Shown here: piece by piece, positions 1,005 to 36,405 of the stretch | Layout: the number at the start of each line of letters is the position of its first letter | Numbering within the stretch: the stretch's first letter is position 1 | From: Thiomicrorhabdus sp. | Lineage (GTDB): Bacteria > Pseudomonadota > Gammaproteobacteria > Thiomicrospirales > Thiomicrospiraceae | Assembly: GCA_006222135.1 (NCBI GenBank) | Contig: VCMI01000040.1 | Coordinates: 16 to 46,268, forward strand | DNA: 46,253 nucleotides | Direction of reading: 5' to 3' | Notes under the pieces: model-generated | What the model was told of the DNA's origin: nothing | The model's database searches: none | Seen by the model: only the letters and a program-made list of their open reading frames with translations | Program-made: the position numbers and the translations under genes

Positions 1005-1037
1005 TTTAAGAATGACCAGGCCTGGTCATTCTTAAAT
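1004..1037. terminator. 34-bp perfect palindrome centred on ACCAGGCCTGGT; likely bidirectional terminator
   Basis: Every base from 1004 to 1037 pairs with its mirror position, so either strand could form a 17-bp arm. It lies between two convergent genes (BFD-like on plus, ABC permease on minus), where a two-way terminator is expected. The central 16 bases TGACCAGGCCTGGTCA recur in trpF and folC, so this site is also one of the six copies of the dispersed palindrome. A run of T after the stem is lacking. Confidence 0.55.
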
Positions 1038-1053
1038 GCATATTGGTGTCTAT

Positions 1054-1944
1054 TTATGCCGATTCGATTGATTGTAGTACTTTGCGTTTTGATTGTACTT
1101 TCTGCCAAGCAATCGTTACAAAGAGCAACAATCCGGCACTCACGGCAATAGAGGCCGATATTGAGCTGTCTAGCCAGAATGCCAAAGCATACCCTATCAA
1201 TACCGCAAGCTGAGAATAGCCTACCGCCATCCATAACATAGCTTTTAAAGAGCGTGCCACCAGATAGGCACTGCTCGCAGGAATCACCAGTAATGCCACC
1301 ACTAAAATAGCACCGACCGCCTCAAATGAGGCAACAGTTGTCATTGAAACTAAGGTCATTAGAAAGTAATGCCAAAAGATAACGTTAATGCCTAAAGAGA
1401 GCGCCAGACTCGGATGGAAAGCGATGGTTTTAAGACGATTAAAACTGATGATAATACTGCTTAAAACGATCATAAAGACAATACCAATTCCCCAAAAAGC
1501 ACGCGGTCCAATGTCAAAGCCAGATCCGGTGTCGAGATTACCAATATAAAGGGTATCGAAAGGGATAAAAGCGATTTCACCATAGAGAACACACGATTGG
1601 TCTAAATCAATTTGTCCAGCATAGAGCGATATCAAAATAATGCCTATGGCAAAAAACAGGGTGAAAATGATCCCAATGCTGGCATCACTTTGTAATTTAC
1701 CGACGCGATGTAAACTGTCACTCAACCAGGCGGTCAATAAGCCGATAATGACGGCACCTCCGAGCATAATGGGGAGTGCTCGACTGTCGGTAATGATATA
1801 GGCCAATACGATTCCTAAGAGTACTGAGTGGCTGATGGCATCGCCTATCAACGCCTGTCTACGTAAAATTAGAAATACCCCTACCAACGCACAAGATGCA
1901 GCCACTAAAGCGGCCGTGGCAATAATCCAAATATCGTTTGTCAT
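1054..1944 (-). CDS. Metal (Mn/Zn/Fe) ABC transporter permease, second subunit
   Basis: A 296-residue multi-pass membrane protein of the ABC-3 family (ZnuB/MntB/TroD type), predominantly hydrophobic with about eight or nine transmembrane helices. The family signature LRRQALIGDAISHSVLLGI appears at about residues 27-45, where the conserved GDA-x-SH motif sits. It would form the channel together with the other permease and pump Mn2+, Zn2+ or Fe2+ inward using the ATPase encoded upstream. Its ATG overlaps the stop of the preceding permease gene by four bases (1941-1944), so the two are translationally coupled. It is the last gene of the operon, ending just before the large palindrome. The metal cannot be decided from the sequence; manganese is favoured by the DtxR-like partner. 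Confidence 0.9.
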   Translation of the reverse strand: MTNDIWIIATAALVAASCALVGVFLILRRQALIGDAISHSVLLGIVLAYIITDSRALPIMLGGAVIIGLLTAWLSDSLHRVGKLQSDASIGIIFTLFFAIGIILISLYAGQIDLDQSCVLYGEIAFIPFDTLYIGNLDTGSGFDIGPRAFWGIGIVFMIVLSSIIISFNRLKTIAFHPSLALSLGINVIFWHYFLMTLVSMTTVASFEAVGAILVVALLVIPASSAYLVARSLKAMLWMAVGYSQLAVLIGYALAFWLDSSISASIAVSAGLLLFVTIAWQKVQSKRKVLQSIESA

Positions 1945-3293
1945 TTAGAGTCTCCTTGGCTTGCTGAATTGGCGTTAGGAATTAGATTGCCATGTGGGTC
2001 AGATTGGCTATTGGTTAACTCTGCCTGTAGCTGTAACTCTTGCGATGGCGTCAAAATGTGCTCAATGCGCTCCGCATGTTGGTGCACCTGTTGCGGTGTT
2101 AATTCTGCATGTTCAGTTAAATAATTTTCCCACAAACGATGGCGGCGTGTTAGCTGTTCGGCTAATCCAAAACCCGTTGTTGTCATTTCAAACCCTGCGG
2201 TCGATGACGTTATGAGGGCTTTTTTACAGAGCTGTTTTAAGGTGGCTTGTAAATGCTCTAGGGGCATGCTTCTCAGTGCTTGGATATCAGCAATATTGAA
2301 AGTTTTGTGCTGAAAATCTTTACGTTCTAGTAGCTTATAAAGTGTGCGCAGAACATTCTCCTCGGCGACTCTTTTACGCAGTTTGTTGTGTTCTGTATAG
2401 CGTTTTAAGAGCCCTTTTTCTGGGGCAAATAACAACGAGAGGAAAAACAGTGCTGATAAACTGACAACCATCCAAGGGCCTGTTGGCATGGCCGGCGCTA
2501 GGTAGGAAATCTGCGTGCTTATAATGGCGCTTAAAGCTCCTAAGGCTGCGGCGATTATTAGGATATGTGAAAGTTGGTTGCTCCAAAAACGCGCGGCGGC
2601 AACCGGCGTAAGCAGTACAGCCGCCATTAAGACCACGCCAACCAGTTGCAAGCCAACGACTACCGACATGACAATCAACAGTGCCAATAGCAGTTCATAA
2701 CGATTAACGGCGATGCCGATGGTGCGTGCGTAAGTTGCGCTAAAAGCGATTAGGCGGAACTTCTGAAAAAATAGCACGACACAACTCAGTACAAAGAGTG
2801 CGACATAACCCAGTAGCTTAATGTCTTTTTGAGTCATGGCCGCCGCTTGACCAAACAGGATTTTATCTAAACCACTCTTATTGTCGACTTCTAGTCCCTG
2901 AATATAAGAGAGCAGCATGAGCCCCAATGCGAAGAAAAACGAGAGGGTGATGGCCAGTGCCGCATCCGCTTTGATTTTGGTGTTTTTCGGTAGCCAGTCA
3001 ATTAAATAGAAACCGATAAAACTACTGGTCACCGCGCCTAAGAACATCACTAAGGGATCACGGCTTTGGAAGAGTAAAAAAGCCATCATAACCCCTGGTA
3101 GAGCCGCATGCGCCAGGGCGTCACCCACCAAAGAGCGTTTGCGTAAAAAAGCAAAACCACCGATGACAGAGGCGCTCATGCCCAATAAAATACTGCCCAT
3201 CAATACCCAGAGTACGTTGATATCTTCGAAAGACCAGAAGGCTAACCAGTTACTCCAGACAGAAGGGGTTTCAAGTAAGTTAAATGCATCCAT
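1941..3293 (-). CDS. Metal ABC transporter permease fused to a DtxR/MntR-like C-terminal domain
   Basis: 450 residues, against about 280-300 for a plain permease. Residues about 25-290 form an ABC-3 permease with the motif LRKRSLVGDALAHAALPG. A soluble tail follows: a winged-helix-like segment (about 305-365, RVAEENVLRTLYKLLERKDF...) and a segment resembling the metal-binding/dimerisation domain of DtxR/MntR repressors (RRHRLWENYL, then VHQHAERIEHIL, and the family motif DPHGNLIP near the C-terminus). His and Glu residues typical of the regulatory metal site are visible. Permeases with this tail are known (annotated as MntC in some Bacillus species), but the purpose of the tail is not settled. 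It may sense metal at the membrane or gate transport. It starts 8 bases after the ATPase gene. Confidence 0.88.
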   Translation of the reverse strand: MDAFNLLETPSVWSNWLAFWSFEDINVLWVLMGSILLGMSASVIGGFAFLRKRSLVGDALAHAALPGVMMAFLLFQSRDPLVMFLGAVTSSFIGFYLIDWLPKNTKIKADAALAITLSFFFALGLMLLSYIQGLEVDNKSGLDKILFGQAAAMTQKDIKLLGYVALFVLSCVVLFFQKFRLIAFSATYARTIGIAVNRYELLLALLIVMSVVVGLQLVGVVLMAAVLLTPVAAARFWSNQLSHILIIAAALGALSAIISTQISYLAPAMPTGPWMVVSLSALFFLSLLFAPEKGLLKRYTEHNKLRKRVAEENVLRTLYKLLERKDFQHKTFNIADIQALRSMPLEHLQATLKQLCKKALITSSTAGFEMTTTGFGLAEQLTRRHRLWENYLTEHAELTPQQVHQHAERIEHILTPSQELQLQAELTNSQSDPHGNLIPNANSASQGDSK

Positions 3294-3301
3294 GATTTGA
3301 C

Positions 3302-4105
3302 CTAATCCGTATCGTGGGCTTTGTTAAGCTGAGAGCGGTACATCTGCTCGGTTAAATCATTCAATAGCGAAAGGCGACCGCCGTAGGTTTTATTAAGATT
3401 CTCTTTAGTCAGGACTTCCACTACCGGACCTGCTGCAATCAGACGTGCATTGATAAAAATAATCCAATCGAAGTATTCGCCGACCGTATTCAAATCGTGA
3501 TGTACGCAGACAATGGTTTTACCTTGTGATTTAAGGTCTTTAAAAAGCTCGATAATGGCTTGCTCTGTGGCAACATCAACGCCAGCAAAAGGTTCGTCCA
3601 TTAGATATAAAGTGGCTTGCTGGGCGAGAGCGCGAGCCAAAAAGACACGCTGTTGTTGTCCGCCTGAAAGCTGACTAATCTGACGCTCTTTAAACTCCCA
3701 CATTTTAAGATCTTTTAGCGCTTGCTCGGCAATGTCTATATCGAGTTGGCTAGGACGTTGCCACAATTTAAGGTGGCCGTGTCGACCCATCAATACAACA
3801 TCTAAGACATTGATTGGAAAATCCCAATCGATCTCTTCACGTTGCGGAACATAAGCGGTCGCTTGTCGTTTTTTGTCTAGTGATTCACCAAAGAAGCTGA
3901 CCAGGCCTTCAATACTAGGTTCCAACCCCATAATGCCTTTGAGAAGAGTGGATTTTCCGGCACCATTCGGTCCGACGATGGCAATGGTTTTGCCTTCCGG
4001 AATCTCAAAGCTGACATCGGTTAACACCGGTTTATGGTGATAACGCATGCTCAAGTGTTGGACACTCAAAGGAGAGGTATAGGTGTTTGAATTAGATCGG
4101 TTCAT
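3302..4105 (-). CDS. Metal ABC transporter ATP-binding protein
   Basis: 267 residues with the full ABC ATPase set: Walker A GPNGAGKST (about residues 44-52), Q-loop VPQREEIDWDFP, signature LSGGQQQR, Walker B LYLMDEPFAGVD and the H-loop VHHDLNT. The Q-loop sequence and the DWDFP stretch are typical of Mn/Zn/Fe importers (MntB, ZnuC, SitB class). It powers the two permeases encoded directly downstream. It is the second gene of the importer operon, 40 bases after the binding-protein gene and 8 bases before the fused permease. Confidence 0.93.
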   Translation of the reverse strand: MNRSNSNTYTSPLSVQHLSMRYHHKPVLTDVSFEIPEGKTIAIVGPNGAGKSTLLKGIMGLEPSIEGLVSFFGESLDKKRQATAYVPQREEIDWDFPINVLDVVLMGRHGHLKLWQRPSQLDIDIAEQALKDLKMWEFKERQISQLSGGQQQRVFLARALAQQATLYLMDEPFAGVDVATEQAIIELFKDLKSQGKTIVCVHHDLNTVGEYFDWIIFINARLIAAGPVVEVLTKENLNKTYGGRLSLLNDLTEQMYRSQLNKAHDTD

Positions 4106-4145
4106 AGGTTAGTTCTTTAATATAGCGCTTTAAAATGAGATTGTT

Positions 4146-5105
4146 CTAAGGTTGTGGTTTTGCATTTTTAAGGGCATCGACAATGGTGTTTACATTGTGT
4201 TTAACCATTCCAAAATAGTTGCCGGTAGGCGTACCGCTTTGACCCATAGCATCGGAATAGAGTTCGCCACCAATGCTCAAATCATGACCTTCGGCTTTAA
4301 CGCCGGCGACAAGCGATTGGATAAAGCGCGGAGAGACGCTGGATTCTACAAAAAGGGCTTTAATCTGGTTTTTAACAATAATGTCTTTTAACAGCTTTAT
4401 GTCTTGTAGGCCAAATTGAGACGCGGTACTTATGCCTTGTAACCCCTCCACCTGCATGCCATAGGCTTGACCAAAATAGCCAAAGGCGTCATGAGCTGTA
4501 ATTAAAATACGCTGGGATTTTGGAATGCTTAAAACTTGGTCTTTAATCCATTCATGCAGTTGGAGCATCTCATTTAAATAAGGCTGGGCGTTATCCGCAT
4601 AGGCCTGTTTATTTTTTGGATCTTGCTGTTGAAGAATTTGCAGTACGCGTTGGCCCGCTTGATGCCAAAGGCTCAAGTCAAACCAAATATGTGGGTCGGG
4701 AAAGTGACCGTGTTGTCGCAATTGCGCCTTGGGAATCAAGCTACTAACGGCAAAGACAGGCCTAGAGCGTCCCATCTGCTCAAATATATCCTGCATTTTG
4801 CCTTCAAGATGTAATCCATTATATAAGACAATGTCTGCTTTCGTTAACCGGCGTAAATCGCCTTGAGTGGCTTTGTATAAATGAGGATCGACACCGCTCC
4901 CCATTAAAGCCGTGACTTCAACGTATTGGCCACCGATGTTTTGTGCCAGGTCGGCAATCATACCAGTGGTGGTGGTGATTTTCAGTTGAGCCTGAACCGA
5001 AAAAGTTAAGAGCAGTAAACTCAAGCCAATTAACCCCTTTAAAGCTCGGCTGGCGCTTGAGTTTATTGGGCGGCTTATGGTGCTGTAGGTCATCAACGGT
5101 TGCAT
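4146..5105 (-). CDS. Metal ABC transporter substrate-binding protein (cluster A-I type)
   Basis: 319 residues with an N-terminal signal sequence: a basic start, then GLIGLSLLLLTFSVQA with cleavage likely after A-Q-A (about residue 40), so it is exported to the periplasm. No lipobox Cys is seen. The fold signatures of the ZnuA/MntA/PsaA family are present: GSGVDPHLYKAT and FPDPHIWFD supply His ligands, and VESSVSPR and the late SDAMG segment supply the acidic ligands. The His-rich loop typical of high-affinity zinc proteins is missing (only HGHFPDPH), which favours manganese or iron. The start is uncertain; an internal Met four residues later is also possible. It is the first gene of the four-gene operon, with its control region at 5106-5376. 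Confidence 0.9.
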   Translation of the reverse strand: MQPLMTYSTISRPINSSASRALKGLIGLSLLLLTFSVQAQLKITTTTGMIADLAQNIGGQYVEVTALMGSGVDPHLYKATQGDLRRLTKADIVLYNGLHLEGKMQDIFEQMGRSRPVFAVSSLIPKAQLRQHGHFPDPHIWFDLSLWHQAGQRVLQILQQQDPKNKQAYADNAQPYLNEMLQLHEWIKDQVLSIPKSQRILITAHDAFGYFGQAYGMQVEGLQGISTASQFGLQDIKLLKDIIVKNQIKALFVESSVSPRFIQSLVAGVKAEGHDLSIGGELYSDAMGQSGTPTGNYFGMVKHNVNTIVDALKNAKPQP

Positions 5106-5173
5106 AGGGTTTCTCAGTAAAATAATATTGTTTGTTCTGTTTTTGATTGTGTCTAATATATTGAAAAATCAGC

Positions 5174-5213
5174 TGACTAAGTCATGGTTAAATAAAAAGT
5201 TAGTCGAGGCTAA
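5174..5213. promoter_or_regulatory. Possible operator of the metal importer operon (two dyads)
   Basis: Upstream of the binding-protein gene lie an 11-bp perfect dyad TGACTAAGTCA (5174-5184) and, 15 bases further upstream relative to the gene, TTAGTCGAGGCTAA (5200-5213) with 4-bp matching arms. Both share GACTAA/TTAGTC half-sites. TTAG/CTAA arms are reminiscent of DtxR-type operators. On the minus strand a TATATT hexamer lies between the dyads and the gene (about 5154-5159). The function is inferred. Confidence 0.3.
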
Positions 5214-5340
5214 TAAAAAACAAAGTTAACTATATCATGAAAATGGAATCTTGAAAAGAATGAACTAGATGTGCAGGCTATTTGCCATTGGTAATAGAGG
5301 GTTGATGTCGGCTTGTAGAGGGGGGCGAATTCAGAGGCCG

Positions 5341-5366
5341 CCAGAGATAAACCGTTTTATCTCTGG
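5341..5366. terminator. 11-bp hairpin between rlmD and the metal importer operon
   Basis: CCAGAGATAAA and TTTATCTCTGG are exact reverse complements around a 4-base loop, located 11 bases past the rlmD stop in the direction of transcription. No U tract follows, so intrinsic termination would be weak; it may instead protect the rlmD 3' end. Confidence 0.45.
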
Positions 5367-5376
5367 TGATAGAAGT

Positions 5377-6672
5377 TTAAAGTCTAAAGATTGGACGTTT
5401 TTTAACTTTAGGCGTCGCTTTTTGCGTCTTGGTCAATTGCACCATCACTTCAGTATGCGTGGTATGAGGAAACATATCAATAAGACAGGCTTTGGTTAGG
5501 CGATATCCCTGCTTTTCAAGTTCTTTAATGTCACGAATTAACGTGGCAGCATGACAGGAAACATAAACGATGATATCTGCCTTAAGCAGTCCTAATGTTT
5601 TGCACAAATCAAATGCACCTTGACGACCTGGATCTAGCAGAATACGGTCATACTTGTTGTTCTTGAACCAAGGTAGTGGACGCATGTCGTTAAACAAGTT
5701 GGCTTTGTCGAACTTAACATTGTCCAGTTGATTGAGTTGTGCATTGTGGTTGGCGACATCCACTAAAGATTTTTCACCTTCAATACCGACTACTTGTGAA
5801 ACTTGCTGGGCAATGGGCAGGGTGAAATTACCAACACCACAGAAGAGGTCTAATACCTTGTGAGTGGGTTCTAGGTTAAGCCACGACACCGCCTGGTTGA
5901 CCATAATTTTGTTCTGTTCTGCATTGATCTGAATAAATCCATTTTTGGGAAACTCTAGGGTCAATGTTGTCGGGGTTTTATTCACTTCAGTGTTGAGTTG
6001 GTAATAAGGTAGGGCGGTTGTGTTTGATTCAGAATCGTCTGCTTTGTCGGTAGAGTTGTTGATAAAAATGCCATTGTCGGCTTCTACAAAGGTAATCTCT
6101 TTATAGGCGCGGCTGGCGGTATCTAATAGCTCTGCACGATTATCCTGAATGGCTTGGTTTAAGGCAGGGCTCAAGACAGGGCAGTTTTTTATGTCGATAA
6201 GTTCATTAGAGGATTTTTGTCTAAAGCCTAAACGAGCGATCTTGTCTTTTTTATTAATCACGAGGCCTAAACGGGCGCGTCTGCGATAACCGATACCTGT
6301 GCCGATTAAAGGTTCGACGGTTTTGCACTGCTTAGAATCTACGGCCTGAATGAGATCTGTCATAAAGTTTTGGTTTTTCCAAAAACGTTGCGCATCCAGT
6401 GAAAGATGCTGTAGTTGACAGCCACCACAAATTGCATAGTATTCACAAAATGGCTCAACCCGATCCTTTGAAGGTGTCAGGATTTCTAGGCAGTCAGCTT
6501 CATCAAACTTATCTGAAGATTGAGTGATTTTGGCTTTAACGCTGTCACCAGGCACGGCCTGATTAACAAAAATGGTTTTGCCATTATGGCGAGCAACTCC
6601 GCGACCGTCATGTGTTAGACCGGTGATTTCTAAAGAGTCATTCAATGTGTTTGGCTGGTTTTTTTGTGTCAT
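5377..6672 (-). CDS. rlmD: 23S rRNA (uracil-1939-C5)-methyltransferase RlmD
   Basis: 431 residues, the usual RlmD length. An N-terminal TRAM domain (about 12-66, LEITGLTHDGRGVARHNGK) is followed by the iron-sulfur cysteines C76-x5-C82-x2-C85 (FCEYYAICGGCQ) and a fourth Cys in IKNCPVL. The SAM-binding motif LDLFCGVGNFTLPIA and the catalytic-loop region YVSCHAATLIRDI follow (the family usually reads SCNPATLARD; the nucleophilic Cys is kept). It methylates U1939 of 23S rRNA in the cytoplasm. Related TrmA enzymes lack the TRAM/Fe-S arrangement, and RlmC is shorter. It is transcribed leftwards behind queE with a 97-base gap in which I see no clear signal. Confidence 0.94.
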   Translation of the reverse strand: MTQKNQPNTLNDSLEITGLTHDGRGVARHNGKTIFVNQAVPGDSVKAKITQSSDKFDEADCLEILTPSKDRVEPFCEYYAICGGCQLQHLSLDAQRFWKNQNFMTDLIQAVDSKQCKTVEPLIGTGIGYRRRARLGLVINKKDKIARLGFRQKSSNELIDIKNCPVLSPALNQAIQDNRAELLDTASRAYKEITFVEADNGIFINNSTDKADDSESNTTALPYYQLNTEVNKTPTTLTLEFPKNGFIQINAEQNKIMVNQAVSWLNLEPTHKVLDLFCGVGNFTLPIAQQVSQVVGIEGEKSLVDVANHNAQLNQLDNVKFDKANLFNDMRPLPWFKNNKYDRILLDPGRQGAFDLCKTLGLLKADIIVYVSCHAATLIRDIKELEKQGYRLTKACLIDMFPHTTHTEVMVQLTKTQKATPKVKKRPIFRL

Positions 6673-6769
6673 AGGCTTCTGCGATTAAGTTAATTTGGTT
6701 ACGTTTAAGTAAGTCTGTTTGGTCAAAAAGTGCTGACCCTGCATTCACATGGCTTTAAGAGCGGTTTAT

Positions 6770-7492: not shown

Positions 7493-7534
7493 TTGCGATT
7501 ATTTTTTAAATTTACACGGGTTGGGTTAAGCGCG

Positions 7535-13424: not shown

Positions 13425-14210
13425 GTGATAAAAATTGCACTGGGCATAGAGTACCAAGGTACTCAATACTGTGGATACCAGCGACAATTAGATTGTCCAA
13501 CGGTTCAAGGGCATTTGGAGAAAGCGCTTTCCAGTATTGCCAATGAACCGATTGCGTTAACCTGTGCAGGTCGTACCGATACGGGTGTTCATGCTGTTGG
13601 CCAGGTAGTGCATTTTGAAACTAAGGCAAAACGACAGTTAAAAGCTTGGGTTCAAGGCGCAAATACCAAGTTGCCATTTGATATCCGTATTAGCTGGGCC
13701 AAGGAAGTTACTGAAGAGTTCCATGCCCGTTTTTCAGCAGGCTCTCGTCAGTATCGTTATGTGATTTATAATCGCAGCGTGAATTCAGCTGTCTTAGCCA
13801 ATAGGGTGACATGGATTTACTCCCATTTGGATGTCGATAAAATGCACCAGGGCGCGCAAGCGTTGTTAGGTCATCACGATTTCAGCTCTTTTAGAGCCTC
13901 GGGTTGTCAGGCCAATAATGCCTTGCGAACAGTGGAGTCAGTCTCTGTCTCTCGTAAGGGGGATTTTGTCTTTATTGATATTCAGGCGAACGCTTTTTTA
14001 CATCACATGGTTCGCAATATTGCAGGGACCTTGTTTCAAATTGGCTTGTCAGAGAAGCCTGTGGAATGGGTTGCTGAGGTGTTGGCTTTAATGGATAGAA
14101 CTAAAGCAGCGGGCACAGGGCCTGCAACGGGATTGTATTTTGTAAATGCATTTTATCCTGAGCAATTTGAGATACCTAAAGTGGCTTTAGATGAGGTGCT
14201 ATGGCAGTGA
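13425..14210 (+). CDS. truA: tRNA pseudouridine(38-40) synthase TruA
   Basis: 261 residues from a GTG start (GTGATAAAA; IALGIEYQGTQYCGYQRQ is the standard N-terminus). The catalytic Asp is in AGRTDTGVHA, and HHMVRNIAGTL is the second family block. It makes pseudouridine at positions 38-40 of the anticodon arm of many tRNAs. It starts 3 bases after asd and overlaps trpF by 10 bases, so it belongs to a tight asd-truA-trpF-trpB unit. Confidence 0.95.
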   Translation: MIKIALGIEYQGTQYCGYQRQLDCPTVQGHLEKALSSIANEPIALTCAGRTDTGVHAVGQVVHFETKAKRQLKAWVQGANTKLPFDIRISWAKEVTEEFHARFSAGSRQYRYVIYNRSVNSAVLANRVTWIYSHLDVDKMHQGAQALLGHHDFSSFRASGCQANNALRTVESVSVSRKGDFVFIDIQANAFLHHMVRNIAGTLFQIGLSEKPVEWVAEVLALMDRTKAAGTGPATGLYFVNAFYPEQFEIPKVALDEVLWQ

Positions 14211-14845
14211 GCCTAATTAATCGAAGAACACGCATTAAGATTTGCGGATTAACCTCTGTGGAAGATGCTTTATTAGCGGTGAATAGCGGAGCAGATGCCA
14301 TTGGTTTGGTGTTCTATGAACCCAGTCCACGTCACGTCAGTATTGACCAGGCCTGGTCAATTGCAGAATCGATTCCTGCATTTGTGACCAAGACAGCCCT
14401 GTTCGTGAACCCGGACGTTGAATACGTGAAAGAGGTTTTAAGAACGGTTAAAATTGATCTATTACAGTTTCACGGTGATGAGGGTCCCGAGTTCTGTGAG
14501 CAGTTTGGACTGACTTACATTAAAGCCGTGCGTATGCGTGACGATATTGATTTAGCAGCTTTGGAAAAGTCTTATAGCCGTTCAGCAGGTTTACTGTTGG
14601 ATGCTTATAAAAAAGGTGTTCCGGGTGGTACAGGTGAACAGTTTGATTGGGAGAGTATTCCATCAAACATTGCCCCAAGAATTATTTTAGCGGGTGGCTT
14701 AAACCCTGGAAACGTTCGGCAAGCCATTCAGCAGGTTGCACCCTGGGCACTTGACGTCAGTGGCGGAGTCGAGGCTTCGAAAGGGGTGAAATCCGCTGAA
14801 AAAATACAAAAATTTATGCAACAAGTTATGAGTACAGTTCAATGA
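14201..14845 (+). CDS. trpF: Phosphoribosylanthranilate isomerase
   Basis: 214 residues, a TIM-barrel enzyme of tryptophan synthesis. The motifs are [13 protein letters not shown] (catalytic Cys), [14 protein letters not shown] (catalytic Asp) and [10 protein letters not shown] plus DVSGGVE for phosphate binding. The gene begins inside the truA end (10-base overlap) and its stop overlaps the trpB start by 4 bases. The dispersed palindrome (core 14346-14357) is read here as DQAW, between SPRHVSI and the AES..PAFVTK block. This part of TrpF varies in sequence but not length, so the palindrome seems to have arisen by substitution rather than insertion. Confidence 0.95.
14342..14361. repeat. Dispersed palindrome copy inside trpF (20 bp perfect)
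   Basis: ATTGACCAGGCCTGGTCAAT is a perfect 20-bp palindrome containing the 12-bp core ACCAGGCCTGGT and the 16-mer TGACCAGGCCTGGTCA, which is also found at 1013-1028 and 18609-18624. Confidence 0.85.
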
Positions 14846-16047
14846 CAATAGACTATTCTAAATATCCTGATGAGCACGGACACTTTGGTCCTTATGGTGG
14901 TATTTTCGCGCCAGAAACTTTAATGGCCGCATTGGAACAACTTAATCAGGAATACAAGAGCGTTAAGAATAATCCTGGTTTTTTAAAAGAGTTGGCCGAA
15001 GACCTACAAAACTATGTAGGACGTCCTACGCCTTTATATTATGCAAAACGTTGGTCTGAATCTTTAGGTGGTGCAAAAATCTATCTGAAGCGTGAAGATC
15101 TGAATCACACGGGTGCGCATAAAATCAATAATACCATTGGGCAAGCTTTGCTGGCAAAGCGTCTGGGTAAAACTCGTATTATTGCAGAAACGGGTGCAGG
15201 ACAGCACGGCGTTGCTAGTGCGACGGTTGCCGCTCGTTTAGGTTTGGAATGTGTCGTCTATATGGGTGCGGATGATATTATTCGTCAAGCGCCTAATGTG
15301 ATGCGAATGAAAATGCTTGGTGCGACTGTGGTCGGTGTTGAGTCGGGTTCGCGTACTTTAAAAGATGCCTTAAATGAAGCGATGCGCGACTGGGTTACGA
15401 ATGTAGATGATACTTTCTACATTATCGGTACGGTGGCTGGACCTCATCCCTATCCTGGTATGGTCAGAGATTTCCAAGCAATTATTGGTCGTGAAACCAA
15501 GCAGCAGTCATTAGCAAAGGAAGGTAAATTACCGGACGTGTTGCTTGCTTGTGTGGGCGGTGGCTCAAATGCGATTGGTCTATTTCATGAGTTTCTGGGC
15601 GATGACAGTGTCAGAATGATCGGCGTTGAACCGGGCGGTTTAGGTCTAGAAACAGGTCAGCATGCAGCCCCTTTATGTAAGGGTACTCCGGGTGTATTAC
15701 ACGGCAATCGTACCTATTTGATGCAAGATGAAAATGGCCAGATTTTAGGTACCCACTCTATCTCAGCAGGCCTGGATTATCCTGGTGTTGGTCCAGAGCA
15801 TTCTTGGTTAAAAGATATTAAGCGTGTTGAGTATGTTGCGATTAATGATGAAGAAGCATTGCAAGGTTTTAGAGATTTAACTCGCTATGAAGGCATTATT
15901 CCAGCATTGGAAACGAGTCATGCGATTGCTTATGCGACTAAATTAGCGCCAACGATGTCTAAAGATCAAATGATTGTCATTAATCTATCTGGTCGTGGCG
16001 ATAAAGACATGAATACGATTGCACAAATTGAAGGTTATGACGTTTAA
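14842..16047 (+). CDS. trpB: Tryptophan synthase beta chain
   Basis: 401 residues. The PLP lysine is in [14 protein letters not shown], and [15 protein letters not shown], the cofactor phosphate loop [12 protein letters not shown] and the NLSGRGDKD ending are all present. It condenses indole with serine to make tryptophan in an alpha2beta2 complex with TrpA. The N-terminus ([22 protein letters not shown]) is canonical. It is translationally coupled to trpF (ATGA overlap). Trp genes for the earlier steps (trpE, trpD, trpC) are not in this window, as usual for this split arrangement. Confidence 0.97.
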
Positions 16048-17922: not shown

Positions 17923-19269
17923 ATGACAATTCCGAATCGTCAATCCAGCCTAACGGACTGGGTTGATTGGTTACTTCAATTACACGCTCAAGAAATAGAC
18001 CTTGGCCTCGACCGGATTCGTCTGGTGGCTGATGCTATGCAATTGACTAAGCCTGCTCCAGTGGTGATTAGTGTTGCTGGTACGAATGGCAAAGGTTCTA
18101 GTGTTGCTCTCTTGGTTGCGATTCTCAAAGCGGCTGGACACCAAGTCGGCGCTTATACTTCTCCGCATATCCAGTTTTTTAACGAACGCATTCAAATCAA
18201 CGGCACTCCGGTCAGCGATTATTTAATCATTGATGCATTTATAGCGATTGAAGCGGCTAGAGCAGAAACTAAATTAACCTATTTTGAATTTTCAACCTTA
18301 GCGGCACTCTATCTATTTAAACGAGCTCAGTTAGATGTGGTTGTGCTTGAGGTTGGTTTAGGTGGGCGTCTGGATGCCGTCAATATAGTCGATGCAGATG
18401 CCGCTTTGATTACAGCGATTGATATTGACCATGTCGATTGGTTAGGCAGTGATCGCTCTGTTATAGCCACAGAAAAAGCCGGTATCATGCGCTGTGCAAA
18501 ACCCGCAATTTGTTCGGATGTAGCTCCTCCTGCAAGTTTAATGGCTTATGCAAATGATAAACTTGTACCGTTAAGTCAGTTTAAAGTTGATTTTGATTTG
18601 CAGATAAATGACCAGGCCTGGTCATTTAAGTGGTTAAAAGAGCAAGATTCTGTACAGTTGGTTTGCCCATTAGACGATTTACCTTTTCCTGCACTCAAGG
18701 GTGAATTTCAACTGAATAATGCAGCGGGTGTGATCGCGCTCTTATCTAAGCTGAGTTCCTTATTGCAAGTTGATAGTCATGCCATTAAGCTAGGCTTGCG
18801 TCAAGTCAGTCACCCTGGTAGATTGCAATCCATAGAGCTTGGGTCACAATCTTGGTTGGTTGATGTTGCGCATAATCCACAATCCGCTTTAGCTTTAGCG
18901 AGTTATTTGCAGCAACAACAAGCCGAGCGTATTGAATTAGAATATTTATGCCTATTTTCGGTATTAAGTGATAAAGATGCTTTACCGATGGTTGAAAAAA
19001 TAGCCCCTTTTGTCTCCCGTTGGGTTATTGCTGATTTACAAATCCCACGAGCCACTTCCGTTGAAGCTTTGCGTGCTTTATTAAACAGAGCAGGTATTGA
19101 AAATTCGAATATCATCATTAAGAAAAGTATGGCAGACGCCGCGGCTTATGCCAAAATCAGTTCTGAAACAGATGTTTTAGTCTGGGGTTCATTTTTTACA
19201 GTATCTCAAGTATTAGCAAGTTTAGCTGTTAATACGACAGTTTTGAAAACAGAGAAAGCGCATGGATAA
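17923..19269 (+). CDS. folC: Bifunctional folylpolyglutamate synthase / dihydrofolate synthase
   Basis: 448 residues, an ATP-dependent Mur-ligase-fold enzyme. The P-loop is VISVAGTNGKGSSVALL (about residues 48-64), followed by the omega loop YTSPHIQFFNERI, VVVLEVGLGGRLDAVN and the late DVAHNPQSA. It adds glutamate to dihydropteroate and to folates in the cytoplasm. The ribosome binding site is poor (A-rich leader). Its end overlaps the next gene by 8 bases. The dispersed palindrome lies at 18605-18628 and is read as DQAW between the substrate and C-terminal domains, a low-conservation stretch. Confidence 0.95.
   Translation: MTIPNRQSSLTDWVDWLLQLHAQEIDLGLDRIRLVADAMQLTKPAPVVISVAGTNGKGSSVALLVAILKAAGHQVGAYTSPHIQFFNERIQINGTPVSDYLIIDAFIAIEAARAETKLTYFEFSTLAALYLFKRAQLDVVVLEVGLGGRLDAVNIVDADAALITAIDIDHVDWLGSDRSVIATEKAGIMRCAKPAICSDVAPPASLMAYANDKLVPLSQFKVDFDLQINDQAWSFKWLKEQDSVQLVCPLDDLPFPALKGEFQLNNAAGVIALLSKLSSLLQVDSHAIKLGLRQVSHPGRLQSIELGSQSWLVDVAHNPQSALALASYLQQQQAERIELEYLCLFSVLSDKDALPMVEKIAPFVSRWVIADLQIPRATSVEALRALLNRAGIENSNIIIKKSMADAAAYAKISSETDVLVWGSFFTVSQVLASLAVNTTVLKTEKAHG
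18605..18628. repeat. Dispersed palindrome copy inside folC (24 bp perfect)
   Basis: A 24-bp perfect palindrome with the core ACCAGGCCTGGT at 18611-18622. The arms extend to TAAATGACC/GGTCATTTA, nearly as in the long copy at 1004-1037. Confidence 0.85.
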
Positions 19270-19871: not shown

Positions 19872-21388
19872 ATGTGCGGTATTGTTGGGATTGTATTGGC
19901 TAGCGGCCAAACGGTTGGTCAAGAGATTTATGACGCTTTAACTACGTTACAACATCGTGGTCAGGATGCCGCGGGTATTGTGACTTGTGAAAATGGACGT
20001 TTTTTCAGCGTAAAGCGAACGGCATGGTCAAGGATGTGTTTCGGACACGTCACATGCGGGATTTGCATGGTAATATCGGAATTGGTCATGTCCGTTATCC
20101 TACGGCAGGCTCTTCTTCGAGTGCGGAAGCCCAGCCATTTTATGTGAACTCTCCTTATGGCATCGCAATGGGCCATAACGGTAACTTAACCAATGCTGAT
20201 GCGTTGGCACAAGAGATTTATCGCCAAGATTTACGCCACCTCAATACCAACTCAGATTCGGAAGTACTATTGAATATTTTTGCACATGAATTGATGCAGC
20301 AGAAGAAGCTCTTTATTGACCATGAAGATGTCTTTAATGCGGTTCGCAAGGTACATCAACGTGTCAAAGGTGGTTATGCAGCTGTCGGCGTTATCTCTAA
20401 TATCGGCATAGTCGCTTTCCGCGACCCTTTTGGTTTACGTCCTGTCGTCGTTGGTAAGCGAGCCAATATCAATGGTTTTGATTACATGGTGGCCTCTGAG
20501 TCCGTCGCTTTAGATGGACTGGGTTACGAATTAATGAAAGATTTGGCGCCTGGTGAAGCGGTCGTCATTACAGATGCCGGTGAGATTTTCTTTCAGCAGT
20601 GCGCTGAAAACCCGAAATTATCGCCTTGTATCTTTGAGTTTGTTTATTTTGCTCGTCCTGATTCAATGATTGATAACATCTCTGTTCATAAGTCTCGTCT
20701 TCGTATGGGTGTGACGCTCGCGGATAAAATCCTTAAAGAGTGGCCAGATCATGATATCGATGTGGTGATGCCGATTCCGGATACCAGTCGCACCTCTGCA
20801 TTAGAATTGGCTTCTAGATTGGGTTGTCCGTATCGTGAAGGGTTTATCAAAAACCGCTATATCGGTCGTACCTTCATTATGCCTGGACAACAGTTACGTA
20901 AAAAATCAGTGCGTCAAAAGCTGAATGCCATTGGTTTAGAGTTCGAAGGTAAAAACGTATTATTGGTCGATGATTCCATTGTTCGTGGTACGACTTCTGC
21001 ACAAATTGTTGAAATGGCACGTGAAGCAGGCGCTAAAAAAGTATATTTCGCTTCTGCGGCACCTCCCGTTCGTTTCCCTTATGTTTATGGGATTGATATG
21101 CCGTCACCAGCAGAATTGGTTGCGAGTAATCGAACCGTTGAGGAAATAGGTGAAATTATTGGTTGTGACAAATTAATTTACCAAGACTTGGCAGATTTGA
21201 TTGAAGCGGTCGGAGCGGGTAATGAGAATATCGCTGAATTTGATACCTCTTGTTTCAGTGGGATTTATGCCACAGAAGATATTACGCCTGAGTATTTAGC
21301 CTCTATAGATACGGCGCGTAATGATGATGCGCAATCTAGTAAACAAGCTTCCGGTCAGGAAACCGTCGGAATTCACAACGGTGACTAG
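19872..21388 (+). CDS. purF: Amidophosphoribosyltransferase, split by one -1 frameshift
   Basis: First enzyme of purine synthesis: it transfers the glutamine amide to [12 protein letters not shown] supplies the N-terminal nucleophile Cys, and [12 protein letters not shown] follows. The frame breaks in the AAA run at 20012-20014; with one more A the protein continues as [11 protein letters not shown]. Afterwards come [20 protein letters not shown]-like GHNGNLTN, and the PRPP loop [14 protein letters not shown]. The restored length is about 505 residues, as expected. The second ORF (20024) would lack the catalytic Cys and cannot be functional alone, so a sequence error is the likeliest explanation for an otherwise intact gene. 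Confidence 0.93.
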
Positions 21389-21527: not shown

Positions 21528-21541
21528 CACCAGGCCTGGTG
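21528..21541. repeat. Dispersed palindrome copy upstream of metZ (14 bp perfect)
   Basis: CACCAGGCCTGGTG, core 21529-21540, 31 bases before the metZ ATG and abutting the 37-bp repeat array. Confidence 0.85.
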
Positions 21542-25978: not shown

Positions 25979-26009
25979 GCTCTGTATAAGGTCATTTTAA
26001 GGCCTAATG

Positions 26010-26038
26010 AAGCCCCGTTTAATCGGGGCTTTTTTTTT
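26010..26038 (+). terminator. Rho-independent terminator after ftsH
   Basis: The 8-bp stem AAGCCCCG/CGGGGCTT with a 6-base loop (TTTAAT) overlaps a run of nine Ts. Textbook intrinsic terminator 32 bases after the ftsH stop. Confidence 0.92.
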
Positions 26039-26051
26039 GAATAGGAAATTC

Positions 26052-26888
26052 ATGTTTAATATTAAAACCTTGATTGCCGAAAAATCATCAAATCAAAATG
26101 GCATGCCTTTAGTGATGGGGGTTTTGAATGTCACTCTGGACTCGTTTTCAGATGGTGGGCGTTTTATCACTCAGGATCAGTTTACTCAGCACGTTTCCGA
26201 GATGATTTTATCGGGTGTTGATATTATTGATATCGGTGGAGAATCCACCAGGCCTGGTGCGATTACAGTCGGTCTTCAGGAGGAGTTAGATCGTGTACTG
26301 CCGGTGATTGAATGGGTTGCAGCACGTTACGATACGCCCATCTCAATTGATACCTATAAGCCTCAGGTAATGAAGGAAGCGGTTGGTAGGGGCGCGGTAT
26401 TGATTAATGATGTCAATGCCTTGCAAGCGGAAGGTGCTATTGAATGTGCTGTAAATTCAGGTGCTACGGTTTGTCTTATGCATAAGTTGGGCGAGTTTGC
26501 GACCATGCAGGATGCCCCTGAATATCAAGATGTGGTGCTAGATGTTTGTGATTTTTTATTAGCTCGTGCCCTCGTGTGTGAACAAGCCGGAATGGATAAA
26601 AATAAAATTATCTTGGATCCAGGGTTTGGGTTTGGTAAGACTTTAGCGCATAATAGCGAGCTATTCGAAAATTTAGAGCGTTTGGTCTTATTGGAGTACC
26701 CCTTGCTCGTGGGCGTTTCTAGAAAACGCATGATCGGTGAGATTTTAAATGCTACCGCTGTAGAAGATCGAATGGTCGGTAGTGTGGCTGCAGCGGTTCT
26801 AGCGTCGCTTAAAGGGGCTAGTATTGTCCGAGTACATGATGTTAAAGCAACGGTTGAGGCTTTACGGGTCACGATGCATTTAATGTAG
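26052..26888 (+). CDS. folP: Dihydropteroate synthase
   Basis: 278 residues from the ATG at 26052 (MFNIKTLIAEK), preceded by AGGAAA. The ORF-track start at 26007 lies in the ftsH terminator and is rejected. TIM-barrel motifs are VMGVLNVTLDSFSDGG, IDIGGESTRPGA, SIDTYKP, LINDVNAL and DPGFGFGK. It joins 7,8-dihydropterin pyrophosphate and p-aminobenzoate, the sulfonamide target. Odd point: the near-invariant NVTPDSF motif reads NVTLDSF (CTG for CCG). The dispersed palindrome (26246-26259) codes for the conserved STRPGA block. glmM follows after 35 bases. Confidence 0.95.
   Translation: MFNIKTLIAEKSSNQNGMPLVMGVLNVTLDSFSDGGRFITQDQFTQHVSEMILSGVDIIDIGGESTRPGAITVGLQEELDRVLPVIEWVAARYDTPISIDTYKPQVMKEAVGRGAVLINDVNALQAEGAIECAVNSGATVCLMHKLGEFATMQDAPEYQDVVLDVCDFLLARALVCEQAGMDKNKIILDPGFGFGKTLAHNSELFENLERLVLLEYPLLVGVSRKRMIGEILNATAVEDRMVGSVAAAVLASLKGASIVRVHDVKATVEALRVTMHLM
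26246..26259. repeat. Dispersed palindrome copy inside folP (14 bp perfect)
   Basis: CACCAGGCCTGGTG, core 26247-26258, identical to the copy upstream of metZ. Here it is read as T-R-P-G within a motif conserved in all FolP proteins, in a different reading phase from the trpF, folC and nuoG copies. Confidence 0.85.
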
Positions 26889-30454: not shown

Positions 30455-30500
30455 AGCCTTGGTTCTTCATTGGCGAAATAAGCGATAAAGTAGTTTTACT

Positions 30501-31154
30501 ATGAAACAGTCAGTATTAGATTTACAAAAGAAAGTTAACCAAGTCCTTGGTGATGATGTCGTGTCATCTACTCTTGCCTTAGGTGAGCTCACTATCGAAT
30601 TGTCGCCATCAAAAGCATTGGCCGCATTCACTCTTCTAAAAGAACAGCTTGGTTTTGAACAGCTAATGGATCTTTGTGGTGTTGATTACTTAGATTACGG
30701 CCAAGCGAATTGGGAAACCATGACGGCCGTAAATAGTGGTTTCAGTCGTGGTGTTTTCGATTTTGCGGAAGATAACGAGGATGAGTCTTTAGATATTGAA
30801 CGCCGTTTTGCGGTGGTCTATCATCTATTGTCGATACAGCATAACTTAAGAATTCGTGTCAAAGTCTTTCCAGAAACAACACAGATGCCGACTGTTGATA
30901 GTGTCATTGATGTTTGGAATTGTGCTAATTGGTTTGAGCGTGAAGCGTTCGATATGTTTGGGATTTTGTTCAAAAACCATCCTGATTTACGCCGTCTTTT
31001 GACAGATTACGGTTTTATTGGCCATCCATTAAGAAAAGACTTTCCATTGACTGGACATGTGCAAGTGCGTTATGACGCAGAAAAGAAACGTGTTATCTAT
31101 GAACCTGTCACGATTGAAAACAGAATCAATGTGCCACGAGTGATTCGTAAATAA
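30501..31154 (+). CDS. nuoC: NADH-quinone oxidoreductase subunit C
   Basis: 217 residues, the 30-kDa subunit of the peripheral arm. Typical blocks are MDLCGVDYLDY, FAVVYHLLSIQHNLRIRVKVF, and the family signature NWFEREAFDMFGILFKNHPDLRRLLTDYGFIGHPLRKDFPLTG. It is a separate gene here, unlike the nuoCD fusion of enterobacteria. 46 bases after nuoB. Confidence 0.97.
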   Translation: MKQSVLDLQKKVNQVLGDDVVSSTLALGELTIELSPSKALAAFTLLKEQLGFEQLMDLCGVDYLDYGQANWETMTAVNSGFSRGVFDFAEDNEDESLDIERRFAVVYHLLSIQHNLRIRVKVFPETTQMPTVDSVIDVWNCANWFEREAFDMFGILFKNHPDLRRLLTDYGFIGHPLRKDFPLTGHVQVRYDAEKKRVIYEPVTIENRINVPRVIRK

Positions 31155-31184
31155 TCACCTTTAAAGTGTAATTAGGAATAAGTA

Positions 31185-32438
31185 ATGCCTGAAATTCGTA
31201 ACTATACCCTCAACTTCGGTCCTCAGCACCCATCTGCGCATGGTGTGCTACGTTTGGTACTAGAGTTGGACGGTGAAACTATTGTTCGTTCTGATCCTCA
31301 TATCGGTCTGTTGCACCGTGGAACAGAAAAACTTGTTGAATATAAGCCTTACAACCAATCTATTGGTTACATGGATCGTTTAGATTACGTCTCTATGATG
31401 TGTAATGAGCATGCCTATGTGATGGCGATTGAAAAGATGCTTGAACTTGAAATTCCTGAGCGAGCTCAATATATTCGAGTTATGTTTGATGAGATAACTC
31501 GAGTGCTTAATCATTTGATGTGGTTAGGTGCGCATGCACTTGATATCGGAGCCATGACCGTCTTTCTTTATGCCTTCCGTGAGCGTGAAGATTTGATGGA
31601 TTGTTATGAAGCGGTTTCAGGCGCGCGCATGCATGCAACGTATTACCGTCCAGGTGGCGTCTATCGCGACCTACCTGAGACGATGCCAAAGCATGAAAAA
31701 TCAAAATGGAATTCCGATAAAAAACTAGATGAGTTAAATGAAACTCGTGAAGGTTCATTGCTTGATTTTATCGATGCTTTTACGGATCGTTTTCCGGGTT
31801 ACATTGATGAGTACGAAACATTGTTAACAGATAACCGTATTTGGAAACAGCGTACCGTTGATATTGGCATTGTTTCACCAGAACGGGCATTACAGCTTGG
31901 CTTTACTGGACCGATGTTACGTGGTTCAGGCGTTGAGTGGGATTTGCGTAAGAAGCAACCTTATGAAGTTTATGACAAGCTTGATTTCGATATTCCAGTG
32001 GGCGTCGGTGGTGATTGTTACGATCGTTATTTAGTCCGTATTGCAGAAATGCGAGAGTCCAATAAGATTATTAAACAGTGTGTCGATTGGTTAAAAGCCA
32101 ATCCTGGTGCGGTCATGTCAGACGACCATAAGGTAACACCTCCTTCGCGAGAAGATGCAAAATCGAGTATGGAAGCGTTGATTCACCACTTTAAGCTTTA
32201 TACCGAAGGTTACACGGTGCCTGAAAATGAAATTTATGCTGCGGTAGAGCATCCAAAAGGTGAATTCGGTATCTATATGGTATCCGATGGTGCAAATAAG
32301 CCTTATCGCATGAAAGTTCGTGCCCCTGGTTTTGCGCATTTAGCATCACTTGATGAGATGGTCAAAGGCCATATGATTGCAGATGTGGTTTCCATTATTG
32401 GTACCCAAGATATTGTATTTGGAGAGGTAGATCGATGA
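31185..32438 (+). CDS. nuoD: NADH-quinone oxidoreductase subunit D
   Basis: 417 residues, the 49-kDa subunit related to [NiFe] hydrogenase large subunits. [21 protein letters not shown] holds the quinone-site His; [12 protein letters not shown] and the ending [14 protein letters not shown] are canonical. It lines the quinone cavity with NuoB. The stop overlaps the nuoE start by four bases. Confidence 0.97.
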
Positions 32439-32941
32439 GTTCGACAACGACTAGTCCGGCAAACTTTATTCAAGGCGATGTTAAAGCACGTATTGATAAG
32501 TGGATTGCAAACTATCCAGAAGATCAAAAAAAGTCAGCGGTAATGTCGGCATTACGCATTGTTCAAGAGTGCCATAATGGTTATTTGACCAATGATTTAA
32601 TGAATCAAATTGCCGCTTATCTAGACATTTCTCGGATGGAAGTTTATGAAGTAGCGACCTTTTACGGTAACTATGAACATGCTCCTGTCGGTGAGATTAA
32701 GCTTTGTATCTGCAATAGTATTTCTTGTATGTTACGTGGTAACCAAGGTATTTATGATTATCTAGAGCAGAAGCTCGGTATCAAGCCTGGTCAAACAACA
32801 GCAGATGGCCGCTTTACAATCAAAAAGGTCGAGTGCCTAGGCGCTTGCGGCGGCGCACCGATGATGCAAGTCGGCAAAGATTACCACGAGAATTTAACAA
32901 ATCAATCGATTGATTTACTTCTAGCTGAATGGGAGAAATAG
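32435..32941 (+). CDS. nuoE: NADH-quinone oxidoreductase subunit E
   Basis: 168 residues of thioredoxin-like fold with the N1a [2Fe-2S] cluster: Cys ligands in [11 protein letters not shown] and [15 protein letters not shown]. Part of the NADH-dehydrogenase module with NuoF and NuoG. It abuts nuoF. Confidence 0.96.
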
Positions 32942-34222
32942 ATGGTCGAACAAAATGAAAACTGCTTCCGATTAAACCACCTCGAAAATTCGTGGGACAT
33001 AGACACTTATGTTGCCAATGGTGGTTATGAAGTCTGGAAAAAAGTATTGGCAGGCGAATTAGAACCTTCTGAAATCATAGAAGAGATTAAAACATCGAAT
33101 CTTCGTGGGCGTGGTGGAGCCGGTTTCCCAACGGGCTTGAAATGGAGTTTTATGAACCGTTTTGCACCTGGTCAGAAATACATTGTCTGTAATTCTGATG
33201 AAGGTGAGCCTGGAACCTTTAAAGACAGAGATATTATTCGTTATAACCCACATGCCTTAGTTGAAGGTATGGCGATTGCCGCTTATGTTATCGGTGCTTC
33301 AGCAGGTTATAACTATATACGTGGAGAGTTCTGGGAACCTTATCAGCGTTTTAATAATGCGATTAAGCAAGCGCGTGAAGCCGGTTTTTTAGGTAAAGAT
33401 TTACTCGGCTCTGGTTTTGATTTCGATCTGTTTACTCACTTGGGTGCAGGGGCTTATATTTGTGGCGAAGAAACAGCCCTGATTGAGTCTATCGAAGGCA
33501 AGAAAGGCCAGCCACGCTTTAAACCACCATTCCCTGCAAGTTTCGGCTTGTACGGTAAGCCAACCACGGTCAATAACACTGAAACCTTAGCGTCTATTCC
33601 TATGATTTTAGCTAAAGGTGGTGATTGGTTTAATGATTTAGGTGTGAATAACGCCGGTGGAACCAAATGTTACTCAGTGTCTGGACATGTTAATAATCCA
33701 GGGAACTTAGAAGTACGAATGGGAACATCATTTAAAGATTTATTAGAACTTTCGGGCGGTATTTGGAAAGGACGTCAACTCAAGGCGGTCATTCCAGGCG
33801 GTGCATCCACTGCCATTTTACCCGCTGCAAAAGCACTTGAAATGACCATGGATTATGATTCCATTGCGAAAGCAGGTTCGTTTTTAGGCGCGGGTTCGGT
33901 GATTATTATGGATGATCAAACAGACATCGTAAAAGTCATGCAGAACCTCAGTCACTTTTATTGGGATGAGTCTTGTGGTCAATGTACTCCTTGTCGAGAG
34001 GGCACCGGTTGGTTATACCGTGTTTTGACTCGTATTGTTGAAGGTAAGGGCAAACCCGAAGATATTCAGGCACTAAAGGATGTTTCCGGAAAAATCATGG
34101 GTAATGTTATTTGTGGTTTAGGAGATGCGGCTACGCTTGGCTTGACCAGTGCGCTTGAGCACTTTGAAGATGAATTTGTTCACTATATTGAACATGGATG
34201 CAGTATTTACGATCGTAGCTAA
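32942..34222 (+). CDS. nuoF: NADH-quinone oxidoreductase subunit F
   Basis: 426 residues, binding NADH, FMN and cluster N3. [18 protein letters not shown] is the FMN/NADH glycine-rich region, [16 protein letters not shown] the NADH-binding block, and [14 protein letters not shown] with the later [11 protein letters not shown] gives the four Cys of N3. NADH entry point of complex I. Followed by a 71-base gap with a hairpin. Confidence 0.97.
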
Positions 34223-34260
34223 TGATTCATACCACCCAGTGTCTGGGTAGTGTGAAACAT
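34222..34260 (+). other. Intra-operon hairpin between nuoF and nuoG
   Basis: Imperfect 18-bp stem (15 exact matches plus one G-T wobble) closing on the 6-bp inner stem ACCCAG/CTGGGT with the loop TGT. It begins at the nuoF stop codon. No U run follows, so a processing site, partial attenuator or 3'-end protector is more likely than a terminator. Confidence 0.5.
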
Positions 34261-34293
34261 TAGGTTCCATCAGAAAACTTAGGTTAAAGAATT

Positions 34294-36405
34294 ATGGTAA
34301 AAATTGAGATAAACGGACAACTGGTCGAAGCTCAAGAAGGTAGCATGCTCATTGATGTGGCTGATAACGCTCAGATTCAAATTACCCGTTTTTGTTACCA
34401 CAAGAAGCTATCAATTGCGGCAAACTGCCGCATGTGCCTTGTTGAAGTTGAAGGTGCTTGGAAAGCACTACCTGCTTGTGCCACTCCTGTCACTGATGGT
34501 ATGAAGGTACATACTAAATCAGCCAAAGCCATTTCGGCACAGAAGTCTGTCATGGAATTTTTGCTGATTAACCACCCACTTGATTGTCCTATTTGTGATC
34601 AAGGTGGTGAGTGCGAACTACAAGATGTGGCTATGGATTATGGCGATGATATTTCTCGTTATACAGAAGCAAAGCGAGTTGTCAGCGATGGCGATGCTGG
34701 ACCTTTAATTAAGACAGACATGACACGTTGTATTCACTGTACTCGTTGCGTTCGTTTCGGCCAAGAAGTAGCTGGGATGATGGAACTAGGAGCGACAGGT
34801 CGTAGTGAATGGATGGAAATCGGTACTTATATTGAGAAGTCTATTACCTCTGAGATGTCCGGTAATATGATTGATTTGTGCCCAGTAGGTGCTTTAACCT
34901 CTAAGCCCTATAGATATACAGCACGTGCTTGGGAACTTAAAGCCCATAATTCGATTTCGGCTCACGATAGCATGGGTTCTCACATTATTGTCCACGCAAA
35001 AAATAATGATGTAAAACGTGTCGTGCCTCGTGAGAATGAAGCGATTAACGAAGTTTGGTTATCTGATAGAGATCGTTTCGCATATGAAGGCATTAACTCT
35101 GATACGCGTTTAACGATGCCTATGATCAAACAGAATGGATCTTGGAATGTGGTTGATTGGGAAACGGCGCTTGAATTTACCGTTGCCGGTTTGCAAAAGG
35201 TTTTAGTCAATAGTCAAGATGTCGGTGTATTAGCGTCTGCGAACTCAACGTTGGAAGAGTTACATCTACTGCAAAAAATGGCTCGCGGTGTCGGCATTGA
35301 AAATATCGATTTCCGTCATCGTCAAGTAGATTTCGCTCTCGATAAAACTGGTTTTAATCTACCAACGCTGGCACATGATATCGCAGATGTTGAAACATTA
35401 GAGACAGTATTGATTGTCGGTTCTTACTTGAGAAAGGAATTGCCGATTCTGAACCACCGTATCCGTAAAGCGTTTTTAGAGGGTGCCAAAATTGCTGTCG
35501 TCAATCCAGTTAAGTTCGATTTTAACTATAAGATAACAGAGCCGAGTATCGAACCAGGAATGGTCTTTAACCTTGCTGGTATCGCTAAAGCGGTTCTTGA
35601 CAGCGCCGGCAAAAGTGACCAGGCCTGGTTGAATTCAATTCAACCGACTGATGAGCATATTGCAATTGCAACAATGCTTGTGGAGGCTAAAAAATCTAGC
35701 ATTATGTTAGGTCAGATCAGCCAAATGCATGAAGACTATACTGTTCTGCAAAAATTGGCTAGTATCATTGCTGAAAACAGCTCAACCACGCTCAATATTC
35801 TACCGTTAGCCGCGAATGAAGTCGGGGCTCACTTAGTTAACTTCCTACCTAAATCAGGTAAGAACAGTTCTCAAATGGTGAATGATGGCTTAAAAGCCTT
35901 TATTAATATGAATATTGAAGCTGAAGCCGATTTTACAGATGCTGATGCGGCCGTTAACGCGATGAAGAATGCCGAATTTGTGGTTAATTTAACGGCATTC
36001 GACAGCGATTTACAGCGTGAATATGCAGATGTCATGCTCCCCATCGCAACCTTTGCTGAAACGGCTGGAACTTACGTTAATGCCAATGGCATAAAGCAAT
36101 CATTCAAAATGTCTGTAGAACCACAAGGCGACGCGAAAGCCGCTTGGAAGGTAATGCGTGTTTTGGGTAATATGTTTGATATTGCTGGTTTTGATTACGT
36201 CCATACTAATGACGTGTTACGTGAAGTTCTAGACAATACCGCTGATAAGGTAGATTTTTCGGCTGTCATTAGCCAATTACCAACGGCTAACAACGACTCT
36301 AAAGTACAGATAGTGTCGCCGTATCAAGTGGATGCAGTTGTTAGAAGATCACCTTCATTACAAGCCACACCAGATGCTGATTCAGCCACTATGGGAAGAG
36401 GATAA
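34294..36405 (+). CDS. nuoG: NADH-quinone oxidoreductase subunit G
   Basis: 703 residues, shorter than the roughly 900 of enterobacteria but normal for the mitochondrial-like form. The N-terminal [2Fe-2S] ferredoxin domain (N1b: [17 protein letters not shown]...PACATPV) precedes the [18 protein letters not shown] block for N5 and the [16 protein letters not shown] Cys set for N4. A molybdopterin-enzyme-like domain without cofactor follows. The dispersed palindrome at 35618-35629 is read as DQAW in this poorly conserved C-terminal part. nuoH starts 5 bases later. Confidence 0.96.
35618..35629. repeat. Dispersed palindrome copy inside nuoG (12 bp perfect)
   Basis: ACCAGGCCTGGT with left flank TG as in the 16-mer; the right flank is TG in place of CA, so the palindrome is only 12 bp here. 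Confidence 0.8.

Follow-up and report, generated by a model that had tools for sequence, protein, structure and literature searches.

Does a short palindrome that recurs along a bacterial chromosome mark a methylation target, a chromosome-organisation site or a tag on the species' own DNA? The question is raised by the window analyzed here—a stretch of 46,253 nt from Thiomicrorhabdus sp.—which carries six copies of the 12-mer ACCAGGCCTGGT. A preliminary description had offered three options: a HIP1-like iterated palindrome, a DNA-uptake signal or a site of chromosome organisation. Of these, the uptake signal fits best, while a HIP1/methyltransferase origin and an organisation site are disfavoured. 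By analogy with known systems, we regard ACCAGGCCTGGT as one dialect of a putative family of DNA-uptake signals ('self' tags) in Thiomicrospiraceae, with a probability of about 65%.

Copies in the window and in the genome

Two of the six copies are intergenic: one at 1015..1026, beside a metal ABC permease gene on the minus strand (1054-1944), at its end, and one at 21529..21540, in the gap between a purF-like gene (20024-21388) and the gene of a Cys/Met PLP enzyme (21573 on). The other four lie within trpF (14346..14357 in 14201-14845, encoding PRAI), folC (18611..18622 in 17923-19269, a Mur-ligase/FolC gene), folP (26247..26258 in 26007-26888, encoding a pterin-binding FolP) and nuoG (35618..35629 in 34294-36405). 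No strand is assigned to any copy. These positions and gene contexts agree with the preliminary description, as do the extensions of the 12-mer: to TGACCAGGCCTGGTCA at 1015, 14346 and 18611, where arms of 17, 10 and 12 bp form perfect palindromes of 34 bp (1004-1037), 20 bp and 24 bp, and to CACCAGGCCTGGTG at 21529 and 26247. Only the number of AGGCCT hexamers, put at about 16, is corrected to 17. The six copies exceed chance, as 100 dinucleotide shuffles of the window yielded none. The core CAGGCCTG occurs eight times in the window. Variant copies, likewise without strand, stand at 15767..15774 (GCAGGCCTGG, sharing only the core CAGGCCTG) and at 46165..46176 (AACAGGCCTGTT, a form over-represented in the relatives G025 and G047); one-mismatch neighbours of ACCAGGCCTGGT are absent from the window.

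The closest named match of the window's FolP is that of Thiomicrorhabdus arctica, at 87% identity. In T. arctica, the folC site is an exact copy at the same place, the copy of the purF-side gap has a counterpart (L016:5524) at the matching alignment edge, and the folP and nuoG sites read ACCAGGCCTGGC and ACCAGACCTGGT—each with one substitution and without gaps. Such single substitutions in an ungapped alignment indicate that copies are gained and lost through point mutation and not through insertion.

Copies confined to the window, or a genome-wide number close to chance, would have refuted the preliminary description. Instead, the 2.31 Mb draft genome of this organism holds 399 copies of ACCAGGCCTGGT against 0 for a reversed-pattern control, and 490 copies of the form ANCAGGCCTGNT; this genome-wide occurrence also supports the earlier view that the palindrome is not a normal operator. 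Genome counts here come from pattern searches, and sequence detail comes from samples of the genomes. The order Thiomicrospirales consists of a single family with 63 genomes, and survey figures are given per 62 of them. Genomes of Thiomicrospiraceae hold between 0 and 718 copies of the exact 12-mer; G023 has 333. Outside the family, 366 sampled gammaproteobacterial genomes hold 0-5 copies each; among the gammaproteobacteria sampled, the iteration of ACCAGGCCTGGT is confined to Thiomicrospirales. Among virus contigs, the 16-mer was found in only three.

Dialects within the family

Each of the 62 genomes bears one iterated motif type or none, making the dialects mutually exclusive. Palindromes of the form N-N-CAGGCCTG-N-N (ANCAGGCCTGNT) are found in 31 genomes. 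G028 is the only carrier of ACCGGCCGGT, with 1025 copies genome-wide and 72 in its 180 kb sample (0.3 expected). Asymmetric motifs (AAAAAACTCAACAGGCCGGGT, AAAATCTGCCAGGYTGGG; class MCAGGYYGGG) occur in five genomes—G024, G037, G007, G008 and G014—at 340-596 copies per genome with the strands about equal; the other 25 genomes show background counts for every motif type. In two of these motif-less genomes (G046, G039; L117-L120), poly-C/poly-G runs that end in AGGGGGGGGGA-like sequence are over-represented.

Within the palindrome carriers, CAGGCCTG is the invariant part and the flanks vary by clade: ACC..GGT in most carriers, AAC..GTT frequently in G025/G047, AGC..GCT in G042 and the G053/G054/G061 group, and a mixture in G048. 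The motif ends are looser in G005, G010, G012, G013 and G016; decay was considered as the cause of their low counts of the exact 12-mer and rejected, as their samples keep CAGGCCTG and only the flanks are looser. The asymmetric dialects carry a tract of 4-6 A on the 5' side. The motif is AAAAAACTCAACAGGCCGGGT in G024 (its 12-base core has 37 copies in 180 kb against 0.04 expected), AAAATCTGCCAGGCTGGG in G007 and CCAGGTTGGG in G008 and G014, in G008 in the form AAAATCTGCCAGGTTGGG. The 12-mers ACCAGGCCTGGT, AACAGGCCGGGT, GCCAGGCTGGGK and GCCAGGTTGGGK can be aligned without a single gap and have CAGG and GG in common. ACCGGCCGGT stands outside this CAGG..GG frame and fits it with one base less per side. 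The first samples of G007 and G008 (L031-L034) also contain long, internally repetitive stretches with short words in 18-55 copies, probably giant repetitive genes.

On a ComEC tree, for which some of the comEC sequences were obtained by protein search, the motif labels need 10 changes versus 21.5 with shuffled labels, and G024 is placed inside the AAC/AGC clade. As in DUS/USS-type signals, the dialects thus share a core, occur one per genome and follow the phylogeny.

Asymmetric copies are also arranged as tail-to-tail inverted pairs, 24-31 bp apart and in most cases with A and T tracts on either side. Their calculated folding energies are -24 to -42 kcal/mol, and most lie within 60 bp of a gene, mostly just past gene ends; in their predicted form, these pairs are textbook terminators. 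A lone palindromic copy—such as the 34 bp copy at 1015—could fold as a terminator by itself. Occurrence in coding and intergenic DNA and on both strands, together with terminators made of inverted pairs, is likewise a property of DUS/USS-type signals.

Placement, upkeep and other explanations

The motif is kept strictly: G022 has 248 strand-counts of the exact 12-mer and 0-2 of each inner one-base variant. When ORFs are defined by a simple greedy procedure, 71 of 122 G022 copies (58%) lie inside genes, at about 0.18/kb of coding DNA; convergent gaps are densest (12 copies in 4.9 kb, 2.5/kb), and divergent gaps are the sparsest among the gaps (3 copies in 8.4 kb, 0.36/kb). Spacing is evener than random in G006 (CV 0.65, over the first 320 kb only) and not so in G005 (CV 1.03, counting exact 12-mers). 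Only one of the sampled 20 kb stretches of G022 is free of the motif (L066, G022:C1:340001-360000), and it holds frames of 1352 and 1395 aa. A mobile element was rejected as its explanation, as ORF sizes and order resemble the rpoBC/str operon (ribosomal-protein) region; this stretch suggests that the motif is kept out of highly conserved genes. The G022 samples L026, L027 and L064-L083 further contain a repeat of about 37 copies with GCGCCCGCGGGGGGCGCGAC / GTGGATTGAAAC, probably a CRISPR array.

Copies are also kept between species. Among 699 comparisons with genomes of the same core, 256 show the core at the orthologous site, where about 6% would be expected from the mean flank identity of 70%; it is present in 1 of 148 comparisons with motif-less genomes and in 1 of 44 with genomes of another dialect, all of these comparisons overlapping and hence not being independent. 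In the compared sequences, upkeep at orthologous sites thus appears only among species sharing the same motif. In two cases, a G024 site aligns with a G022 position that carries the G022 dialect, as if converted in place.

Upkeep at orthologous positions and a strict sequence could also be expected of a site bound by a nucleoid protein or one that organises the chromosome (SlmA-, Noc-, MatP- or NAP-like), whose shifts in specificity would give the variants, and the palindrome suggests a dimeric protein. Yet sites such as matS, parS and those of SlmA/Noc are expected to show a domain bias, whereas the hundreds of copies are spread uniformly round the G022 chromosome (variance/mean 1.2 over 21 windows) without an ori/ter trend. 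The motif is moreover avoided in divergent (promoter) gaps, wholly missing from close relatives and, where it is asymmetric with an A-tract, arranged in inverted pairs. The uniform placement in G022 and the absence from close relatives disfavour a macrodomain-type site in particular, and we consider a role in chromosome organisation unlikely.

HIP1 and the alternate HIPs of cyanobacteria are likewise iterated, GC-rich palindromes that are swapped for other motifs in some relatives, each together with a matching methyltransferase (PMC4390886). In such an origin, a methyltransferase would recognise the core (GGCC, AGGCCT or overlapping CCWGG) and methylation-linked mismatch repair would make and keep the copies. 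Indeed, ACCAGGCCTGGT holds GGCC plus two overlapping CCWGG sites, and the organism's own genome encodes one C5 methylase. HIPs, however, are accompanied by a motif-specific methyltransferase wherever they are abundant, while the motifs of Thiomicrospiraceae do not track the C5 class (PF00145), to which the survey was directed, with N4 and N6 types outside it: the domain scores above the cut-off in only 9 of the 31 palindrome carriers and below it in 22, in none of G028, G024, G007 and G008, and is present in several motif-less genomes. HIPs are also replaced by other palindromes, whereas the replacement motifs here are related in sequence and partly non-palindromic—those of G024, G007, G008 and G014 are asymmetric, and those of G007, G008 and G014 lack a palindromic core and bear the A-tract on one side. 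Because most carriers lack C5 methylases and not every dialect contains a palindrome, an origin by methylation appears quite improbable.

A recombination or repair signal of the Chi type, or a segregation polarity signal such as KOPS, would also be short, iterated, sharply defined and found in genes. The main form is palindromic and therefore carries no polarity, and the asymmetric forms occur in both orientations inside 20 kb stretches and in about equal numbers overall, which leaves very little in favour of such a role. Repetitive terminators or a mobile palindromic element (REP/MITE-like) would account for palindromes and inverted pairs that fold as terminators and for their enrichment in convergent gaps, but are largely refuted by the intragenic majority of G022 copies, by the ungapped single substitutions between the window and T. 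arctica, which are not insertions, and by the lack of a conserved element past ~12-20 bp.

A putative DNA-uptake signal

Asymmetric A-tract dialects, inverted-pair terminators, mutual exclusivity of the dialects and even spacing make an uptake signal the best fit. In this reading, a DNA receptor on the cell surface, belonging to the machinery of natural transformation, would prefer double-stranded DNA bearing the motif. Fragments with copies made by chance would be taken up and recombined more often, and copies would then accumulate by molecular drive via transformation, with purifying selection on proteins setting the limit. A shift in receptor preference might let the whole genome drift to a new dialect and thereby limit interspecies exchange. 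In the palindromic main dialect, one copy could be read from either strand and form its own hairpin, while the asymmetric dialects would need inverted pairs for this.

The competence machinery, as judged from ComEC/Rec2 alone, is present: ComEC is intact in the organism's own genome (above the TIGR00361 equivalog cut-off) and found in 35 of the 37 motif carriers. As 21 of the 25 motif-less relatives keep it as well, the motif cannot be predicted from competence genes, and ComEC is consistent with an uptake signal without being diagnostic. The ComEC of G024, an asymmetric-dialect genome, comes in two pieces, residues 1-613 and residues 607-876, encoded on the same strand 37 kb apart (G024:C1:88078-89826 and 50566-51327; L171, L180), as would be seen if a large insertion had interrupted the gene. 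The neisserial receptor domain ComP_DUS (PF16732) scores above the cut-off in 0 of the 62 genomes, and a screen of the sampled DNA for prepilin-like genes returned only a gspG-J cluster. An apparent loss of PilQ (TIGR02515) in several carriers was dropped from consideration; the strong match of ~730 aa, checked in G022, is GspD of the type II secretion system.

Both known systems offer close parallels, the motifs of Thiomicrospiraceae behaving as DUS and USS are known to do (PMC3630211, PMC7811141). Neisserial DUS resemble the motifs of Thiomicrospiraceae in having hundreds to thousands of copies, dialects built on a core that does not vary, a single main dialect in each genome, a location in permissive regions, inverted-pair terminators and motif-less relatives (PMC3630211). 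They differ in that the sequence is unrelated—the neisserial family has a CTG-containing 10/12-mer core and the ComP receptor—and in that the main form here is palindromic, belongs to another family and habitat and is known from DNA sequence alone. Pasteurellacean USS share a core beside an A/T tract, inverted-pair terminators, even spacing and an exact core, and differ in that this core is of the AAGTGCGGT family; USS are not palindromic (PMC12616744). As in both systems, the copies run to hundreds per genome, far above chance.

Even spacing and A/T tracts are USS features. To our knowledge, none of the known uptake signals is palindromic; ACCAGGCCTGGT would be the first, which counts against the reading. 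We found no uptake or transformation experiment in Thiomicrospiraceae in the literature, and a search without subscription papers and preprints returned no paper on ACCAGGCCTGGT or on an uptake signal in this family. There might be even odds that these free-living sulfur-oxidising bacteria represent a third independent lineage of self-recognition by uptake signals, with a perfect palindrome as the main signal, a receptor unrelated to ComP and dialects that changed from palindromic to asymmetric or the reverse at least twice in the same family.

If ACCAGGCCTGGT is not an uptake signal, a motif so abundant and fast-evolving still needs another explanation. A 2020 study of Haemophilus uptake places a strong preference for uptake motifs in Pasteurellaceae and Neisseriaceae only and relates this preference to mucosal habitats, in which host DNA is plentiful (PMC7811141). 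This idea would be put to the test by a third family, one of sulfur oxidisers from the environment that have several related dialects. Its several natural dialect switches could be used to map receptor specificity, and the signal might provide a handle for the genetic manipulation of chemolithoautotrophs.
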